NCBI GenBank assembly: GCA_902571005.1 | Contig: CACGAG010000001.1 | Coordinates: 1 to 40,448 of the forward strand | Source: an uncultured Pelagibacteraceae bacterium | GTDB taxonomy: Bacteria; Pseudomonadota; Alphaproteobacteria; Pelagibacterales; AG-422-B15 | DNA length: 40,448 nt | Direction of reading: 5' to 3' | Shown: piece after piece, positions 20,254 through 40,166 of the stretch | Layout of the letters: every line of letters starts with the position of its first letter | Numbering within the stretch: position 1 is the stretch's first letter | The notes under the pieces: generated by a model | What the model saw: the letters and a program-made list of their open reading frames with translations, nothing else | Told to the model about the DNA's origin: nothing | The model's database searches: none | Position numbers and translations under genes: made by a program

Positions 20254-20976
20254 CTATCTAACTATCTTTAATGCCTCAGCAATATCAATATTTTTGTCAT
20301 AAATTGCTTTACCTACAATTACACCTTTTATTTGTGAGTAATTTTTTTTCTTTAGGATAATAAGGTCCGAGATATTTGATACCCCGCCTGATGCAACACA
20401 GTCAATTTTTGTTTGAACCATTACATTTTCTAGCATTTCAAAGTTAATTCCTTGCTTCATACCATCCCTCATAACGTCAGTAATTATTATTGAGTTGATT
20501 TTAAGATCTTCTATGCTTTTCAAGAAATCAAAAATTTGTAAATCTTTTACCTCTTTCCAACCTTTTGTAGCAATTTGGTTTTGCTTAATGTCGAGAGCAA
20601 TTGAAATTCTATTAGGATAATTGCAAACTGATTTCTCAAAAAAAGTTTTATTTTCGAAAGCTGATGTTCCAATAATAACATTATTAACACCAATATTAAT
20701 GAGTCTTTCAACTCTTTCTATATTCCTTACTCCGCCACCGAACTGAATCTTAAGATTTGTATTTTTTTTTATTTGCTCAATAGATTTAATATTTTCAAAA
20801 TTGCCCTTGAGCGCACCATCTAGGTCGACGCAATGCAAATATTCCACTCCAGAATCTTCAAAAATTTTAGCCTGTTCTAACGGTGACTCATTGTATGTTG
20901 TAGATTGTTTAAAATCACCTTGTATTAATCTTACACATTTACCGTCTTTTAAATCAATTGCTGGAAATAAAATCAT
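20254..20976 (-). CDS. hisA: ProFAR isomerase (HisA)
   Basis: Amadori isomerisation in histidine synthesis. From the ATG at 20976 the product has 240 residues beginning [17 protein letters not shown] with catalytic Asp8; the second acidic residue lies in [12 protein letters not shown], and FGGGVR and ASGGVS bind phosphate. A start 12 bases upstream is possible by frame but is rejected because ATG 20976 overlaps the hisH stop as ATGA, the pattern used throughout this operon, and is preceded by a purine-rich GTGGGAA. Confidence 0.96.
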
Positions 20977-21611
20977 GAAGGTTCCCACTCAAGAAAGTTT
21001 GTAATTATTTGTTTTCCGTTATTATGACTTTTTTCTGGATGAAATTGTGTACCAAAAATATTTTCCTTGAGTACTGCTGCAGTAATTGGATTTGGATATT
21101 TTGTAGTTGCAATACAATTTTCATTTTTTTGAGTTCTAAAGTAGTAACTGTGCACAAAATAAAAATCAGTATTTTGTGAAATATTATTCAATAATTCATG
21201 ATTGCGAAAAGTGACTTCATTCCATCCCATGTGTGGAATTTTATAATCAGCTGGAGCCTCGATCTTGATTACTTCTCCGGGTATCCATCCAAAGCCCTCA
21301 CATTCACCAAATTCTAAAGATTTTTCTGCTAGTAATTGCATTCCAACACAAATGCCCATAAAAGTCTTTTTTTCGCCAATTACCACTTGTTCAAGACTTT
21401 CAAATAGACCGTCTATTTTGTGAATTGCGTTCTTACAGTCTTGAAAAGCTCCAACTCCAGGAAGAACTATTTTATCGGCTTTTAATATTTCAGATGGTGT
21501 GTTTGTAACAATAATTTCATATGGATTTTCTAAGTTATTGTTTACGGCTTCAAATGCCTTGTGTACTGAATGTAAATTTCCTGAGCCGTAGTTGATAATT
21601 ACTAACTTCAT
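20973..21611 (-). CDS. hisH: imidazole glycerol phosphate synthase, glutaminase subunit
   Basis: Class I glutamine amidotransferase that passes ammonia to HisF. In the 212-residue protein the nucleophile is Cys88 (GICVGMQLL), and the His/Glu pair is in GTQFHPEKSHNNG; NYGSGNLHSV opens the protein. It overlaps bcp at its start and hisA at its end, each by ATGA, so expression is translationally coupled to both. Confidence 0.97.
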   Translation of the reverse strand: MKLVIINYGSGNLHSVHKAFEAVNNNLENPYEIIVTNTPSEILKADKIVLPGVGAFQDCKNAIHKIDGLFESLEQVVIGEKKTFMGICVGMQLLAEKSLEFGECEGFGWIPGEVIKIEAPADYKIPHMGWNEVTFRNHELLNNISQNTDFYFVHSYYFRTQKNENCIATTKYPNPITAAVLKENIFGTQFHPEKSHNNGKQIITNFLEWEPS

Positions 21612-22066
21612 TTATTCATTTGTTTAATAGTATCAACAACTTCCTCTACATGATTATTTACTTTCACTTTTCTCCAAACCTTTACGACCTTGCCTTTCAT
21701 AATGAGAAATGTAGATCTATCTATGCCCTTGTACGTTCTGCCATACATACTTTTTTTAATCCATACACCAAATTTTTCACAGATTTTATCACTCTCATCA
21801 GAAAGAAGATCAAATTTTAATTTATATTTTTCAGCAAATTTATTTTGTTTTTGAATGGTATCTTTGGATATACCATAAACTCTTACCTTTAGATTATTTA
21901 ACTTCCGAAGGTTGCTTTGGAAATCACAAGACTCTTTTGTACAACCTGGAGTATCCGCTTTAGGATAAAAATAAATTACCGTGTCCTCTTTTGTAGGAAA
22001 TTTAACTTCTTCATCTTTCTGATTTTTAAGTTTAAATGAAGGTAACTTTTGGCCTTCTTTAATCAT
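21608..22066 (-). CDS. bcp: thioredoxin-dependent peroxiredoxin, BCP/PrxQ type
   Basis: Reduces hydrogen peroxide and organic hydroperoxides with thioredoxin. The 152-residue protein has DTPGCTKESC, giving peroxidatic Cys42 and resolving Cys47 five residues later, as in atypical two-Cys PrxQ. YFYPKADTPG, SDESDKICEKFGV and RSTFLIMKGKVVKVWRKVKV are typical. It sits between hisB (2 bp gap) and hisH (4 bp overlap), where alphaproteobacteria usually have no peroxidase gene. Its presence ties a peroxide-defence enzyme to histidine-operon transcription. Confidence 0.95.
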   Translation of the reverse strand: MIKEGQKLPSFKLKNQKDEEVKFPTKEDTVIYFYPKADTPGCTKESCDFQSNLRKLNNLKVRVYGISKDTIQKQNKFAEKYKLKFDLLSDESDKICEKFGVWIKKSMYGRTYKGIDRSTFLIMKGKVVKVWRKVKVNNHVEEVVDTIKQMNK

Positions 22067-22068
22067 TA

Positions 22069-22668
22069 TTAAAGTTGTCCTTTGGTAGAAGGAATGTTCA
22101 TTCCCTCTCGCTCGTTAATCGCAACAGCATTTCTTAAACTTCTTGCCAAAGCCTTAAAGCAAGATTCAATTATATGATGGTTATTTTCTCCATAAATATT
22201 TTCCACATGTAATGTTGTTCCACTTGCTTGTGCAAAAGCTTGGAACCATTCTTTAAATAATTCAGTATCAAAGTCACCTTGAGAAGATGTTATCTTTGGA
22301 GCACTAAATTTTACTTTCCAAATTAAATAAGGTCTATTTGATAGATCAAGCGTAACTCTTGATAATGTTTCATCCATAGGAATATATGAGTGCGCATAAC
22401 GTGTAATACCTTGTCGATTACCTAATGCTTTTGATAAACATTCGCCAATTGCAATGCCTGTATCCTCGGTTGTATGGTGATAATCAATGTGAGTATCTCC
22501 TGTTGCTTTTATCGTCATATCTATAAGTGAGTGCTTTGACAGTTGTTCAAGCATGTGGTCAAGAAATCCTATGCCAGTCTTGATATCGTACTTACCTGTT
22601 CCGTCGATATTAATATCGACAGAGATAGAGGTTTCTTTAGTGTCTCTTTTATACTCTGCTGTTCTCAT
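22069..22668 (-). CDS. hisB: imidazoleglycerol-phosphate dehydratase
   Basis: Dehydrates IGP to imidazole acetol phosphate. At 199 residues it is the monofunctional form, without the HisN phosphatase. Metal-binding motifs are plain: [28 protein letters not shown] and [18 protein letters not shown], ending STKGQL. It is the first gene of an eleven-gene minus-strand run. The 115-bp spacer to divergent hslV holds an 8-bp-arm inverted repeat starting 5 bp upstream of the ATG. Confidence 0.97.
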
Positions 22669-28741: not shown

Positions 28742-29556
28742 TAGTTAACCCCCAATACACTCATTAAATCTTCATCGATATCAGGCATTGTGTCGTGCCA
28801 CAATTTGAAAGACTGTGCAGCTTGATGGATTAACATCTCCAGTCCATTTTGAACTGTGCAGCCATTTTTCTCAGCGTGTCTAAGAAAAGTTGTCTTGCTT
28901 GGATTGTATATCAGATCATAAACATGTGCAGATGAATTGAGGCTTTCAAAGTCTATTAAGTTGTTTTCTTCACCTTCTTGTTGTCCTAAGCTCGTGGTGT
29001 TGACAACTAATTGTGAGGATCCGACAAACTCTCTGAGTGTTGTTTCTGTTAAGATTTTTGCTTCTACTCCAAGGTCACTGCAAAGTGACTCTGCGTTTTC
29101 TCTTGTTCTATTATAAATACCAATCTCACACTGCATGTGTGTTAGCGCATATACAACCGCCCTTGCTGATCCGCCAGCTCCAAGCACTAAACATAAATTG
29201 TTATTTAGGCCTCTGTTTGCAATCGATTTTTCAAAACCAATCGGGTCGGTGTTATCCCCATAAACACCATCTTTATTTACTATAAGCGTATTGACTGCTT
29301 TGAGAGCTCTTGCAACATCGGATGTGTTGTCGCAATATTTGTACGCGTCCTCTTTAAGGGGGACCGTAACGTTTAAACCGTAGTAGCCCTCTTCTATTAA
29401 ACGGTCAACATCCCTAATAAAGTTTTCTTTTTTTACATTTATTTTTTGGTAGGTGCCCACATCAATTTTCTCACTTTCAATCCAGTGATTATGAATTTTA
29501 GGTGAAAGACTGTGATCTATTGGATCTCCAATAACTGCTGTTTTTTTATTTACCAT
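28741..29556 (-). CDS. aroE: shikimate dehydrogenase
   Basis: NADPH-dependent reduction of 3-dehydroshikimate. From ATG 29556 the protein has 271 residues: VIGDPIDHSLSPKIHN, NVTVPLKEDAYKYCD with the catalytic Lys, the NTD of GDNTDPIGFEKS, the dinucleotide motif GAGGSARAVVYAL, and the C-terminal NGLEMLIHQAAQSFKLW. An in-frame TTG at 29565 is a possible alternative start but has no better ribosome site. It overlaps the end of maf by 11 bp. Confidence 0.95.
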   Translation of the reverse strand: MVNKKTAVIGDPIDHSLSPKIHNHWIESEKIDVGTYQKINVKKENFIRDVDRLIEEGYYGLNVTVPLKEDAYKYCDNTSDVARALKAVNTLIVNKDGVYGDNTDPIGFEKSIANRGLNNNLCLVLGAGGSARAVVYALTHMQCEIGIYNRTRENAESLCSDLGVEAKILTETTLREFVGSSQLVVNTTSLGQQEGEENNLIDFESLNSSAHVYDLIYNPSKTTFLRHAEKNGCTVQNGLEMLIHQAAQSFKLWHDTMPDIDEDLMSVLGVN

Positions 29557-30151
29557 TGTTTTCAAATAGAAGATTGTTGTCCCAAAGGAACTGGGTTAAT
29601 TGAATTAATGATATGCCTTGTATTGAAAAAAGATCACTCCCAATATTTTCAAAAAGCTTAATTCCTTCTTCCTCAATTGCATAGACGCCTACAAGACCAA
29701 GAATATTATCATCGACTTTATTTAAATACTCTTTTATCAGGTCCTCACTTAGCTTTCGCATATGCATTTTAGATCTGTCTACATACTTCCAAATAATGTT
29801 ATTGTCTTGAGCGACTGTTGTCGCGGTTATGAGTGTGTGGGTAGATCCGCTCATTTTCATCAACTGTTCTTTTGCTTCACTTCTATCCCGAGCCTTGTTA
29901 ATCAATGCGCCTTCCAGATCCAAACCTTGGTCTGATCCAATAACAAATGCACTTTTATTAGACATGGAGGGCTTCAAGGCCTTCATCTCAGCAAGTTTAA
30001 CCACGATCTCTTCAGGTGTATTTTTACTCATCGACATCTTGACTTCTTCCTCATCCACGCCGTGAGCAACGGCTTCAAAGCTTATGCCGGCGTTGCGTAA
30101 CAATTTAACCCTTGTTTCGCTTTTAGATGCCAAAATTATATCCCTGTTCAT
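29546..30151 (-). CDS. maf: Maf family nucleotide pyrophosphatase
   Basis: Hydrolyses non-canonical or modified nucleoside triphosphates; some Maf proteins affect septation. The 201-residue protein starts IILASKSETRVKLLRNAGISFE and keeps DEEEVK, IGSDQGLDLEG, and the GVYAIEEEGIKLFENIGSD region. It is the first gene on the left side of the hemE-proximal spacer; in Caulobacter and Rickettsia a DUF299-type gene usually lies between this block and the origin, and is missing here. Confidence 0.94.
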   Translation of the reverse strand: MNRDIILASKSETRVKLLRNAGISFEAVAHGVDEEEVKMSMSKNTPEEIVVKLAEMKALKPSMSNKSAFVIGSDQGLDLEGALINKARDRSEAKEQLMKMSGSTHTLITATTVAQDNNIIWKYVDRSKMHMRKLSEDLIKEYLNKVDDNILGLVGVYAIEEEGIKLFENIGSDLFSIQGISLIQLTQFLWDNNLLFENNGK

Positions 30152-30424
30152 AAACCTGTATAAACCCCTTATGACCTGTGAGTGCTTTTAGTATCTTTGC
30201 CCATCTGTAATTTTTAACTTATTTTTCTATCTTTATTGAGAATTTTTGCAAACTTTGTTCACTTGTTAGAGATATTACTGTTTTCTTCCACGTCGGTGTA
30301 TAAGGTTAAAAAGCATATAATTCAAAGCGATTGTTCTGTGTATCGAATTGTGGGCAAAAAGCGACTTTTTATATATACACAATTCCACAGGAACATAAAC
30401 AACTACAATTATATATATAATATA
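30152..30424. other. candidate chromosomal replication origin (oriC)
   Basis: This 273-bp spacer, the longest of the window, separates divergent maf and hemE. In Caulobacter and Rickettsia the origin lies beside hemE, and the genes on both sides here match that region. Sequence support: DnaA-box-like 9-mers against TTATNCACA at 30295-30303 (minus, 8/9), 30337-30345 (minus, 7/9), 30349-30357 (minus, 7/9), 30373-30381 (plus, 8/9) and 30255-30264 (plus, weak); a CtrA-like TTAA-N7-ATAA at 30306-30320 (7/8); and an AT-only tract at 30398-30426. No perfect DnaA box is present, so the call rests mainly on position. The hemE promoter must also lie here. Confidence 0.6.
30345..30385. repeat. nested inverted repeat in the hemE-upstream spacer
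   Basis: GAATTGTG (30345-30352) pairs with CACAATTC (30378-30385), and inside it AAAAAG (30356-30361) pairs with CTTTTT (30365-30370) around a CGA loop. The 8-bp and 6-bp stems could form one long hairpin in DNA or RNA. Two of the DnaA-like 9-mers overlap its outer arms. Confidence 0.6.
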
Positions 30425-31411
30425 ATGAGTATATTTATAGACACACTTAAGGGTCAAAAAACAAGCCCAACACCAGTTTGGTTAATGAGACAGGCGGGAA
30501 GGCATTTACCTGAATATTTAAATATCAGAAAACAATTTGCAAACCTTATGGATATGTTTCTAGATCCTATGACGATACTTGAAGTTTCCCTGCAGCCTGT
30601 AAATAGATACGGTATGGATGCCTGTATTGTGTTTTCAGATATTTTAATACCGCCTTTTGCTGCGGGCTCAAGCGTCAGTTTTGTTGATGGGCAGGGTCCC
30701 GTAATAAAATTCAATGAGAACATGAGTTATAATCTTGAAAAAACCTTACCCCTTGCAACAGGAATAAAAAAGATTAAAGAAAATACAGATGTCCCATTAA
30801 TAGGATTTGCTGGCGGAGCATGGACGACGCTGTTTTATTGTTTATATGAAAAGAATGAACGTCAAAATCTAAAATTCGAAGATGTTGTAAAAAAGACTTC
30901 ACAAATAGACAATTTAATTGAGCAAATGACATGTGTGATTATTCAGCACGCAGAAATGCAAATTGATTGCGGGATAGATGCTTTTCAAATATTTGAATCA
31001 GCAGCAGAACACTTGAATGACAAACAGTTCAACAAATGGTGTGTTCAACCTACAAAAAAAATTATTGAGAGTATAAAAAAAATAAAAGACATTCCTATTA
31101 TTGGCTTTCCTAGAAACACTAATCTTGCATGTTATCAAAAATATTCAAATATAGATAAGCTTGACTGTATTACCCTAGACTATAATTTTCCTTTAGATAA
31201 AATTAATGAGCTAAACGATAAAATTGTTTTTCAAGGAAATCTGGACCCTAAACACCTATTAAAAGATTCCCAAAATCTTAGTCAGAAGATTGAAGAAATA
31301 TTGTTTGCTTTTAGAGAAAGACCACATATTTTCAATTTAGGACACGGGGTTTTACCCGAGACATCAATTGAGAAAGTTGAGAAAATGCTCTTACAGATAA
31401 GGTCAACATGA
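30425..31411 (+). CDS. hemE: uroporphyrinogen decarboxylase
   Basis: Decarboxylates uroporphyrinogen III to coproporphyrinogen III in haem synthesis. The 328-residue protein has LMRQAGRHLPEYL near the N-terminus, ACIVFSDILIPPFAAG, GFAGGAWTTLFYCL, FESAAEHL in place of the more usual FDSWAG, and VFQGNLDP. The frame stays open 63 codons upstream, but the conserved sequence begins at MSIFIDTLKG, so ATG 30425 is chosen. hemH and hemJ follow with 4-bp overlaps, making a hem operon beside the presumed origin. Confidence 0.96.
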   Translation: MSIFIDTLKGQKTSPTPVWLMRQAGRHLPEYLNIRKQFANLMDMFLDPMTILEVSLQPVNRYGMDACIVFSDILIPPFAAGSSVSFVDGQGPVIKFNENMSYNLEKTLPLATGIKKIKENTDVPLIGFAGGAWTTLFYCLYEKNERQNLKFEDVVKKTSQIDNLIEQMTCVIIQHAEMQIDCGIDAFQIFESAAEHLNDKQFNKWCVQPTKKIIESIKKIKDIPIIGFPRNTNLACYQKYSNIDKLDCITLDYNFPLDKINELNDKIVFQGNLDPKHLLKDSQNLSQKIEEILFAFRERPHIFNLGHGVLPETSIEKVEKMLLQIRST

Positions 31412-34751: not shown

Positions 34752-35184
34752 TGTTCAGTAAATTTCTTTTGGTACTTAATCCACCCACTGATGTAAATCC
34801 TGTGAGTTTGCCGTCAGTTCCAACTACTCTGTGACACGGAACTGTCATCATAAGATTATTTTTTCCTAAGGCGCCCCCGACAGCTCGGGGCGAAGTTCTT
34901 AACTTCCTTGCAATGTCTCCATAAGTAGTTGTTCTACCATAAGGTATCCTTCGTAAATAATTCCAAACACGGTTTTGAAATTTTGTGCCCATTTGCCTTG
35001 TTGGAAAATTAAGTGATCGTCTTTTGCGTGCAAGATACATTTTAATTTGAAGCGCAGATCTTTTCAGAAGCTTATCCTCTGTTTTGTTAGGCTTTTTCCT
35101 TGTTCTATGAACTGCAATTATTCTATTTTTACTTGAGACAAGCTCAATATTGCCAATGATTGATTTGAAAACGTAGCTGCTCAT
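34729..35184 (-). CDS. ogt: methylated-DNA-protein-cysteine methyltransferase
   Basis: Suicidal repair of O6-methylguanine. The 151-residue protein has the helix-turn-helix with RTTTYGDIARKL, an Arg finger region SPRAVGGALGKN and the acceptor Cys117 in VPCHRVVG, closing LTGFTSVGGLSTKRNLLNIE. It shares a 30-bp divergent spacer with the ferredoxin gene that is symmetric around one -10 sequence. Confidence 0.95.
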   Translation of the reverse strand: MSSYVFKSIIGNIELVSSKNRIIAVHRTRKKPNKTEDKLLKRSALQIKMYLARKRRSLNFPTRQMGTKFQNRVWNYLRRIPYGRTTTYGDIARKLRTSPRAVGGALGKNNLMMTVPCHRVVGTDGKLTGFTSVGGLSTKRNLLNIEQKTKK

Positions 35185-35214
35185 ATATATAAGATATTAT
35201 AATTTTTTGACCTT
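35185..35214. promoter_or_regulatory. symmetric bidirectional promoter, ogt and ferredoxin genes
   Basis: The palindrome ATTATAAT (35196-35203) gives TATAAT on the plus strand (35198-35203) and on the minus strand (35196-35201). Exactly 11 bases separate each -10 from its own start codon (35215 plus, 35184 minus). No Shine-Dalgarno sequence is present on either side; leaders of about 5 nt are implied. Confidence 0.55.
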
Positions 35215-36827: not shown

Positions 36828-36851
36828 AAAAATAATTGATTGCAATTAGTC

Positions 36852-36872
36852 TAAGTTAATTTAATTAACTTA
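36852..36872. repeat. 21-bp palindrome immediately upstream of mnmG
   Basis: TAAGTTAATT (36852-36861) and its exact inverse complement AATTAACTTA (36863-36872) flank a single T. It ends 3 bp before the mnmG ATG and contains TTTAAT (36860-36865), a -10-like hexamer 10 bp from the ATG. It could be an operator over the promoter; in RNA only the arms with a small loop could pair. Confidence 0.55.
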
Positions 36873-36875
36873 ATC

Positions 36876-38754: not shown

Positions 38755-39378
38755 ATGACTGATTCCCCTGACGCTCTAAAAGAGCTCTTGCCAAATGTTT
38801 CACGTGAAACAATTGAAAAATTGGCTGAATTTAGAGAAATAATCTTGGCAGAAGACCAAAATTTAATATCAAAAAATGATAAAAACTTTATCTGGACAAG
38901 ACATTTCTATGATTCTCTCAGATTAGCTCAGTTCATAACAAGCAATGGTAACGATATCATTGATATTGGAAGCGGCGCTGGCCTTCCAGGTATACCAGTT
39001 TCATTATTATTTGGCTCAAAAAACAAGGTTTTTTTATGTGAGAATAGATCCAAAAGAGTATCATTTCTTAATAAATGCATTGATAAATTAGATCTCAAAA
39101 ACACTGAAGTGATTCCCATTAAAGCAGAAAAAATTAAAAATAAAAAATTCGATATCGTTTTAGCAAGAGCAGTCAGCCAATTAAAACATTTATTATCAAT
39201 TAGTTATAATATATGTAAAAAAAACACTACATTGCTTCTACATAAAGGTGTACATATAGATGAGGAGATCGTGCAAGCTACTAAATATTGGGATTTTACT
39301 CATGTATTGCATGAAAATGAAAGAGAAAAAGGTTCTTTTATTTTGGAATTAAAAAATATAATAAAATCAACAACTTAA
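38755..39378 (+). CDS. rsmG: 16S rRNA (guanine527-N7)-methyltransferase
   Basis: Methylates N7 of G527 in 16S rRNA. The 207-residue protein has the Rossmann SAM motif DIGSGAGLPGIPVSLLFG, CENRSKRVSFLNKCIDKL, EVIPIKAEKI and DIVLARAVSQLKHLL. The N-terminal codons for NVSRET (residues 14-19) contain the parS site at 38796-38811, so this coding sequence doubles as the centromere. Its stop shares one base with the parA ATG. Confidence 0.97.
   Translation: MTDSPDALKELLPNVSRETIEKLAEFREIILAEDQNLISKNDKNFIWTRHFYDSLRLAQFITSNGNDIIDIGSGAGLPGIPVSLLFGSKNKVFLCENRSKRVSFLNKCIDKLDLKNTEVIPIKAEKIKNKKFDIVLARAVSQLKHLLSISYNICKKNTTLLLHKGVHIDEEIVQATKYWDFTHVLHENEREKGSFILELKNIIKSTT
38796..38811. other. parS: parS centromere site
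   Basis: TGTTTCACGTGAAACA is a perfect 16-bp palindrome, identical to the widely conserved parS consensus. It lies in codons 14-19 of rsmG (N-V-S-R-E-T), about 8.4 kb from the hemE spacer and 570 bp before parA. I saw no second copy in the window; CACGTG does not recur elsewhere by eye. ParB would load here and spread. Confidence 0.93.
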
Positions 39379-40166
39379 TGAAAAACAAAATAATAGCTAT
39401 CTCAAATCAGAAAGGTGGAGTGGGAAAAACTACAACAGCAATAAACTTATCCACAGCCTTAGCAGCTATTGGGGAAAAAGTTTTAATTATTGATCTCGAC
39501 CCTCAAGGAAACGCTAGTACGGGTTTAGGTATAGATTATCAAAACAGAAATAATTCAATTTATGAAGTTCTTGCATCTCAATGTAATTTATTTGATGCAA
39601 TCCAAAATACTGAAATTGAAAATTTAAAAATCATTCCATCTACTGTGGATCTATCAGGCATTGAACCTGAACTTGCTGAAGTAAACGATAGAGCTTTTAC
39701 TCTTAAAAAAATTTTAACGGATCAAAATTCTTTAAATGATTTTAGTTTTGTTTTTATTGATTGCCCACCAGCTTTAAGTCTTCTTACTGTCATGGCAATG
39801 ACCGCAGCAGATTCAATAATCGTTCCACTTCAATGTGAATTTTTTGCATTAGAAGGTCTTAGTCAGTTAATTAAAACAATTGATAGGGTTAAGCAAAATC
39901 TAAATCAAAATCTAACAATCGATGGAATAGTACTAACAATGTTTGATGGAAGAAATAAACTTTCTTCACAAGTTGCTGACGATGTTAAAAAACACTTAAG
40001 TCAACAAGTATACGAAACTATCATACCACGTAACGTAAGAGTTTCAGAAGCTCCTTCATTTGGTATGCCTGCTTTAATTTATGACCAAAAAGCTGCAGGC
40101 AGTCAGGCATACTTAAGATTAGCGGATGAGATCATAAGACAAAACAAAGAACAGGAGGCAGCTTAA
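39378..40166 (+). CDS. parA: chromosome-partitioning ATPase ParA (Soj)
   Basis: DNA-bound ATPase whose gradient, released by ParB, moves the origin region. The 262-residue protein has the deviant Walker A KGGVGKTT (12-19), LIIDLDPQGNASTGLG, the A' region FVFIDCPPALSLLTVMAM, and the C-terminal IPRNVRVSEAPSFGMPALIYD. It is joined to rsmG and parB by one-base stop/start overlaps. Confidence 0.97.
   Translation: MKNKIIAISNQKGGVGKTTTAINLSTALAAIGEKVLIIDLDPQGNASTGLGIDYQNRNNSIYEVLASQCNLFDAIQNTEIENLKIIPSTVDLSGIEPELAEVNDRAFTLKKILTDQNSLNDFSFVFIDCPPALSLLTVMAMTAADSIIVPLQCEFFALEGLSQLIKTIDRVKQNLNQNLTIDGIVLTMFDGRNKLSSQVADDVKKHLSQQVYETIIPRNVRVSEAPSFGMPALIYDQKAAGSQAYLRLADEIIRQNKEQEAA
40153..40158 (+). promoter_or_regulatory. 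parB: perfect Shine-Dalgarno sequence of parB
   Basis: AGGAGG lies 7 bp before the parB ATG (40166), inside the last codons of parA. It is the strongest ribosome site I noticed in the window and fixes the parB start. Confidence 0.8.

Follow-up and report, generated by a model that had tools for sequence, protein, structure and literature searches.

A spacer beside hemE as the predicted chromosomal origin of a SAR11-type bacterium

The closest described systems are the Caulobacter origin (Cori) and the origins predicted beside hemE in other Alphaproteobacteria. In Caulobacter, parS sites cluster approximately 8 kb from the origin, and most bacteria with a ParABS system are reported to have more than one parS site (PMC5815017). 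The DUF299 partner gene of hemE-linked predicted origins is not universal: Wolbachia has a CBS-domain gene instead (PMC1914354). Some of the hemE origins predicted there are listed without a CtrA site (PMC1914354). We found no published description of a Pelagibacter or SAR11 origin; predicted-origin databases were outside the search and may hold one. SAR11 bacteria rank among the most numerous cells of the ocean. With a located origin, the slopes of metagenome coverage could be converted into in-place growth estimates, and the cell cycle, which seemingly runs without CtrA, would gain an anchor for study.

The window, meaning the whole stretch of DNA analysed here, is 40,448 bases long and sits at the start of a 171,580-bp contig. 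The source genome assembly has a size of 1.26 Mb in 23 contigs and is 91% complete. It was compared with genomes of its own genus (g1, family f1) and of a sister family (f2) in the same order. From kinship, our own reading is that the host group is SAR11 and that f2 represents Pelagibacteraceae proper. The same-genus spacers were divided into a near group (19 spacers, that of the window included; HemE 84-100% identical), a far group (11 spacers; HemE 56-58% identical) and a divergent single, G019. In an orientation-matched alignment, the near and the far spacers each formed a tight block. G044, G049 and G017 (partial HemE match) were left out of the spacer comparison, G059-G065 entered the core search only, and the loci L183, L184, L185, L186, L187, L188, L194, L195 and L196 were outside the analysis.

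The original prediction regarded the spacer in front of hemE as the probable origin. Judged from sequence comparison, the spacer at 30152-30424 is in all likelihood the chromosomal oriC of this SAR11-type host, of the hemE-linked alphaproteobacterial kind. The following features were assigned:

29546-30151, minus strand: maf, left flank of the spacer (TIGR00172 above cut-off)
30152-30424, no strand: proposed oriC, the entire divergent maf-hemE spacer (273 bp, GC 0.30)
30295-30303, minus strand: DnaA-box-like TTATACACC, at −130 here; TTACCCACA at −131 in the far relative L021
30337-30345, minus strand: reverse DnaA-box position 1, CGATACACA; TTATTAACA-type in several f2 spacers (alignment by eye)
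30349-30357, minus strand: reverse DnaA-box position 2, TTGCCCACA, 12 bp from position 1
30373-30381, plus strand: forward DnaA-box position, ATATACACA; TTATTCACA-type in several f2 spacers
30381-30389, plus strand: AATTCCACA, a possible second forward half-box (6/9) with a 1-base overlap with the first
30393-30408, plus strand: period-3 tract ACATAAACAACTACAA, candidate for an altered DnaA-trio; CTAATACTA-like in the far and most f2 spacers
30407-30424, no strand: AT-only tract abutting the hemE start codon, putative unwinding element
30425-31411, plus strand: hemE (uroporphyrinogen decarboxylase), right flank, followed by hemH (TIGR01464 296.6 bits, slightly below the cut-off of 302.95)
38796-38811, no strand: parS TGTTTCACGTGAAACA inside rsmG, the sole match to TGTTNCACGTGNAACA in the genome (pattern search)
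39378-40166, plus strand: parA (PF13614)

Most of the predicted layout was found in place. Taking 30425 as the start of hemE, the spacer is the longest of the window between two listed ORFs, and its flanking genes diverge, with maf on the minus and hemE on the plus strand. The remaining gaps of at least 15 bp from 20.4 to 40.2 kb are 30-115 bp long. The predicted AT-only tract next to hemE was present, and the Caulobacter-like synteny was confirmed on both sides, dnaQ and secB being separated by a nudix gene. A mechanical ORF list places the hemE start at 30236, which would give HemE an N-terminal extension. This start was rejected because single-base indels occurred among the relatives and the open frame differed in length between them.

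The four predicted DnaA-box-like 9-mers were located at their coordinates, and their rating as 7 or 8 of 9 matches was correct only with position 5 left free. Against TTATNCACA (position 5 free), the sites at 30295, 30337, 30349 and 30373 scored 8, 7, 7 and 8, respectively; against TTATCCACA, they scored 7, 6, 7 and 7. Chance levels were derived from 1000 dinucleotide shuffles. The spacer contained three sites with at least 7/9 matches to TTATCCACA (1.3 in shuffles, p 0.14), no site with at least 8/9 matches to it, and two sites with at least 8/9 matches to TTATNCACA (0.6 in shuffles, p 0.12). Fourteen sites matched TTATNCACA in at least 7/9 positions, compared with 5.4 in shuffles, and 0 of 1000 shuffles reached as many. 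The stretch 30285-30400 alone held three sites (0.5 in shuffles) with a p-value of 0.011, which flatters because the stretch was picked after the boxes had been seen. Taken alone, the DnaA boxes of the window's own spacer were marginal, barely above chance; the case for an origin comes from comparison.

No tight cluster of exact TTATNCACA was found elsewhere in the window's own genome, where the closest pair was 333 bp apart; genome-wide, 55 exact sites were counted, compared with 67 for the control. Exact TTATCCACA was rarer than its reversed control (9 vs 23 sites), and this rarity could reflect avoidance of strong DnaA boxes. The DnaA encoded by the genome contains the stretch GRDHTTV, which we take to be responsible for box recognition. 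Nine sites of at least 7/9 within 273 bp of hisB (from 22341) were taken as chance, because no site exceeded 7 and the mismatches were scattered. As a separate observation, the region 20973-22668 (hisH, a bcp-like gene and hisB) had a third-codon mismatch between close relatives of 0.045-0.064, compared with 0.10-0.30 in the genes rightwards of 22.8 kb. This may be due to a recent sweep, a recombination tract or unusual constraint.

Box enrichment was observed in the relatives. The far group had on average 2.82 sites with at least 8/9 matches to TTATCCACA (11 spacers; 0.15 in shuffles), and f2 had 2.95 exact TTATNNACA sites (19 spacers; 0.34 in shuffles). The near group had 6.95 sites with at least 8/9 matches to TTATNNACA (19 spacers; 2.67 in shuffles), no excess of sites with at least 8/9 matches to TTATCCACA (0.05 vs 0.11) and no exact TTATNNACA (0 vs 0.16). 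The loose pattern, TTATNNACA at 8/9 or better, exceeded shuffles in every group; the strict patterns (TTATCCACA at 8/9 or better, exact TTATNNACA) did so in no group other than the far group and f2, apart from exact TTATNNACA, which was also in excess in g2, a genus of f2. Several DnaA boxes above chance were thus found over the relatives, in the near group for the loose pattern only. In a close relative, 0.8% of the same-size windows along a 376-kb contig held as many loose sites, and no gap held more among the 25 listed of the 29 gaps of at least 150 bp. The contig of the same-genus genome G014 has denser stretches, with 10 loose sites at approximately 224 kb.

An order-wide layout was recognized in an alignment by eye: two reverse boxes 11-12 bp apart are followed after approximately 13-15 bp by a forward box and, to its right, by the period-3 tract, an AT-rich tract and the ATG of hemE. 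The 9-mers had been expected to be kept in relatives, and those at 30337, 30349 and 30373 recurred across the order, while that at 30295 corresponds to TTACCCACA in L021. No change in TTGCCCACA at 30349-30357 was seen in the same-genus spacers listed, 19 near ones (that of the window among them) and 11 far ones. The forward box at 30373-30381 is located within a 27-bp run (30363-30389) that was invariant in 19 named relatives. The original proposal that DnaA binding would be of the weak-site kind is supported for the window's close relatives, whose spacers contain weak boxes only.

Mismatch rates were calculated over 20 kb aligned with the 19 named relatives, all of which are near-type. The left half of the spacer was more variable, with a mismatch of 0.120 at 30152-30200 vs 0.012 at 30346-30399; a 60-bp window in the latter region was among the lowest 1.8%. 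Over the whole spacer, the mismatch was 0.055, no more conserved than nearby spacers (0.011-0.076), so that conservation in close relatives alone does not separate an origin from a promoter. The longest invariant run of the 20 kb (57 bp) was at 35140-35196, where a DNA-alkyltransferase-like gene (PF01035) and another gene, with a weak [2Fe-2S] match, start divergently; it is probably a constrained two-way promoter. Between the near and far groups, the core at 30346-30408, a stretch picked from the alignment, was 75-76% identical in four pairs, and the last 95 bp of the spacer were 68-70% identical. In the same pairs, identity was 63-66% for hemE, 65% for maf and 45-47% for the left of the spacer. 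Compared with G019, it was 67% for the core, 57% for maf and 28% for the left of the spacer. Of the 43 genus genomes, 39 contained the 95-bp core (E<1e-10); the remaining four (G006, G031, G032 and G034) are the same four that had no HemE match, probably due to assembly gaps.

Spacer length was 261-286 bp over the 49 spacers measured (own included), namely 271-275 bp in the 30 same-genus spacers (own included) and 261-286 bp in the 19 f2 spacers. For the L028 spacer no divergent start was found; it was taken as 275 bp and entered the box and trio counts but was excluded from the length measurements. The flanking genes had changed around the spacer. A Maf homologue faced it in 30/30 same-genus spacers measured and in 0/19 f2 spacers. 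The predicted absence of the DUF299 gene (PF03618) extended beyond the window: it was found neither beside hemE nor in any of the 36 same-genus genomes searched (own included), whereas all 23 f2 genomes had it. Since it was divergent beside hemE in 21 of these 23, its loss in the window's genus was probably secondary. In G036 (f2, genus g2), the gene order was maf, DUF299, a 353-bp spacer and rho; hemE was gone from the site, and the spacer contained three exact TTATNNACA vs 0.30 expected. In the complete genomes of G036 and G039 (both g2), the sole HemE match was 26% identical and far from the site. Loss of DUF299 would thus have put maf at the spacer and loss of hem genes would have put rho there, while the spacer stayed. 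Across the relatives, the core keeps its length while flanking genes, boxes and trio vary, which makes these predicted origins a natural series for study.

Third-codon GC skew was determined with crude ORF calls on sampled pieces. In three of the four complete f2 relatives sampled (G041, G038 and G040), it flipped in the region of hemE, with the opposite change approximately half a chromosome from hemE; only G040 separates hemE from dnaA. In G041 (hemE at 336 kb), skew was negative in 5/5 samples at 10-290 kb, positive in 10/11 at 335-1005 kb and then negative in 3/4. Its cumulative minimum at 308 kb was a flat trough 28 kb left of hemE, and its 10-kb third-codon bins between 285 and 410 kb, an interval containing dnaA (400 kb), were of mixed sign. 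In G038 (hemE at 1155 kb), skew was negative in 5/5 samples at 570-1080 kb and positive in 6/6 at 1160-1280 and 50-460 kb; the first positive sample was only 0.005, and dnaA (1091 kb) is in the same unsampled gap as hemE. In G040 (hemE at 1090 kb, dnaA at 1.1 kb on the circular map), skew was positive in 9/9 samples at 10-494 kb and negative in 10/10 at 532-1074 kb. By 1112-1132 kb the third-codon sign was positive in one sample, in which total GC skew was −0.037. The fourth genome, G043, had mixed skew, and one of its samples held 5,000 N. In the window's own genus, G014 had a broad skew trough with its minimum at 247 kb (hemE at 209 kb), and the contigs of G014 and G019 showed a broad change in gene orientation and no clean third-codon change, neither contig giving a clear signal. 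Atypical skews have been noted in Pelagibacter and Rickettsiales (PMC2031905).

A distance of 8,371 bp separates the parS site from the start of hemE. Counted as exact matches to the pattern TGTTNCACGTGNAACA, one site each was present in 46 of 59 genomes, and the site was missing from 13. It shared the hemE contig in 41 genomes at a distance of 7.1-18.7 kb, within 12 kb in 39 of them.

The spacer could instead be merely a strong divergent promoter plus the 5' leaders of hemE and maf, conserved for the sake of transcription. This would agree with the AT-only tract before hemE and with nearby promoter-bearing spacers that are as or more conserved (mismatch of 0.011 at 36828-36875 and 0.019 at 35185-35214). 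However, the spacer outlasts either gene, with DUF299 lost in the genus and hemE off site in G036, and a plain promoter would not predict the fixed length, the box enrichment, the recurring box order and the skew change. We therefore consider a promoter without origin function very improbable; the spacer may be both promoter and origin.

The origin could also be located at dnaA-dnaN, 61-74 kb away, with the hemE spacer as a relic or a DnaA-binding regulatory site. The distance between dnaA and hemE was approximately constant where both were on one contig (61-74 kb, 25 genomes), dnaA falls within both the mixed skew stretch of G041 (285-410 kb) and the interval left unsampled in G038, and a gap by dnaA in G014 has five TTATNNACA-like sites. 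Against this, the third-codon sign of G040 had already changed at 1112-1132 kb, between hemE and dnaA (one sample), no site with at least 8/9 matches to TTATCCACA was found in the 407 bp at and upstream of the window's own dnaA start, and parS is near hemE. An origin at dnaA thus appears highly unlikely. An origin beside hemE is supported by the length-fixed persistence of the spacer across the order despite loss of DUF299 or hemE, by box enrichment in relatives together with one parS 7-19 kb away, and by a skew that changes around hemE in three of the four complete relatives sampled.

The period-3 tract was compared with the DnaA-trio. The rule applied was a DnaA box with at most two mismatches, followed after 0-16 bp by at least three adenine-centred triplets on the opposite strand (PMC8287927). 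With the box at −70 to −40, 12 of 19 f2 spacers passed (0.85 expected from shuffles), compared with 0/19 near, 0/11 far and 0/1 G019 spacers (0/31 same-genus). Anywhere in the spacer, the rule was passed by 1/19 near, 4/11 far, 1/1 G019 and 14/19 f2 spacers. Trio-like strings were found in the last 60 bp of 15/19 f2 spacers (1.7 expected), 11/11 far (1.4), 0/19 near (1.5) and 0/1 G019 (0.06). The far-group string is located 18 bp from the box by our own count on the alignment. On the box strand, two of three triplets in near genomes and three of three in G019 were CAA instead of CTA, so that T occupies the central position on the strand bound by DnaA. In B. subtilis, T at the trio middle lowers strand separation and C is tolerated (PMC10721633). 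When adenine was sought on the box strand instead, 19/19 near, 11/11 far, G019 and 15/19 f2 spacers passed by raw count.

By our own count on an ungapped alignment to 8btg, a Phe of the window's DnaA aligns with the adenine-contacting Asn187 of B. subtilis. This position was Phe in 26/26 genus sequences and Tyr in 4/4 f2 sequences; the DnaA stretch pattern was unmatched in the f2 pieces L142, L244 and L245, and in L104-L106 it missed the stretch, which was read from the alignment (Tyr). In other alphaproteobacterial DnaA loci, Tyr was found in 21/25, Phe in 2/25 and His in 2/25; the 25 are those with the stretch found of 30 loci, the best-scoring of 115 genomes. Co-variation of Phe with the loss of the trio is weak, a lead rather than a finding, because the far group has Phe yet keeps CTAATACTA and because Phe also occurs in two of the 25 other loci. 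Rather unlikely, and put forward tentatively, is the idea that in the near group and G019 the origin opens without strong boxes or an adenine-centred trio run, keeping period 3. If true, the altered trio would mean that a bacterial origin uses a modified code for single-strand recognition.

We hypothesize the following course of initiation at the origin beside hemE. DnaA-ATP would assemble on the weak boxes, chiefly the reverse pair (30337-30345 and 30349-30357) and the forward box (30373-30381), and the DnaA filament would extend rightwards across the period-3 tract (30393-30408). The AT-only tract (30407-30424) would then open by melting at the hemE start codon, helicase would be loaded and two forks would depart. 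ParB on the single parS at 38796 would segregate the copies.

The original prediction also named a CtrA-like TTAA-N7-ATAA at 30306-30320. The sequence is present, but its reading as a CtrA site was not supported: the CtrA model NF045991, named for Rhodobacter-type CtrA, gave no match above cut-off in 59 genomes. Among 14 control genomes one was above cut-off, presumably Caulobacter. The pattern is loose, occurring in either direction 14 times in the window, and it was kept in 16/19 near spacers because the whole block is conserved. The window's genome encodes four PF00486 proteins, of which one passes the PhoB model, two give sub-threshold matches to other response regulators and the fourth is degenerate. 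The CtrA model is passed by none of them, and CtrA control of the origin is not supported; since the model is Rhodobacter-type, a very divergent CtrA may still be conceivable. In the degenerate response regulator (G000:C1:49777-50436; L051:9378-10037), only the PF00486 DNA-binding domain was recognised. Many relatives have PF00486 matches 11-12 kb beyond parS, and this protein is a possible regulator of the ori region. Perfect TTAA-N7-TTAA was absent from the 31 same-genus spacers and occurred 10 times in the 19 f2 spacers, where it was not read as CtrA sites because these spacers are at 17% GC. GANTC was absent from the 31 same-genus spacers. A SAR11 CcrM homologue has been reported (PMC3973325).

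Of the features of a Cori-type origin, the intergenic region beside hemE was found, and DUF299 on the other side and CtrA sites or a protein above the CtrA cut-off were not. The locus shares with Caulobacter Cori the position next to hemE, DUF299 as the opposite flank in the sister family f2, the mnmE-mnmG-rsmG-parA block with parS approximately 8 kb away (PMC5815017), and DnaA boxes with an AT-rich tract. It differs in that maf takes the place of DUF299, one parS match is present instead of a cluster, no protein above the CtrA cut-off was found in 59 genomes and the 31 same-genus spacers have no GANTC. With the hemE-linked predicted origins of Rickettsiales (Wolbachia, Rickettsia, Ehrlichia), it has in common the hemE boundary, low GC and a partner gene that is swapped in some lineages (PMC1914354). 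Most of those origins are listed with CtrA and IHF sites, and the spacer here is length-fixed and shorter, 273 bp compared with 383-620 bp for predicted hemE-type origins (PMC1914354). The order of box, short spacer, period-3 tract and AT-rich DNA is that of the basal unwinding system of B. subtilis and others (PMC6669920, PMC8287927), whereas the window and its genus fail the box/trio rule at the expected place (0/31). The spacer is very probably a reduced version of a known origin type, whose start signals are weak and in part altered.
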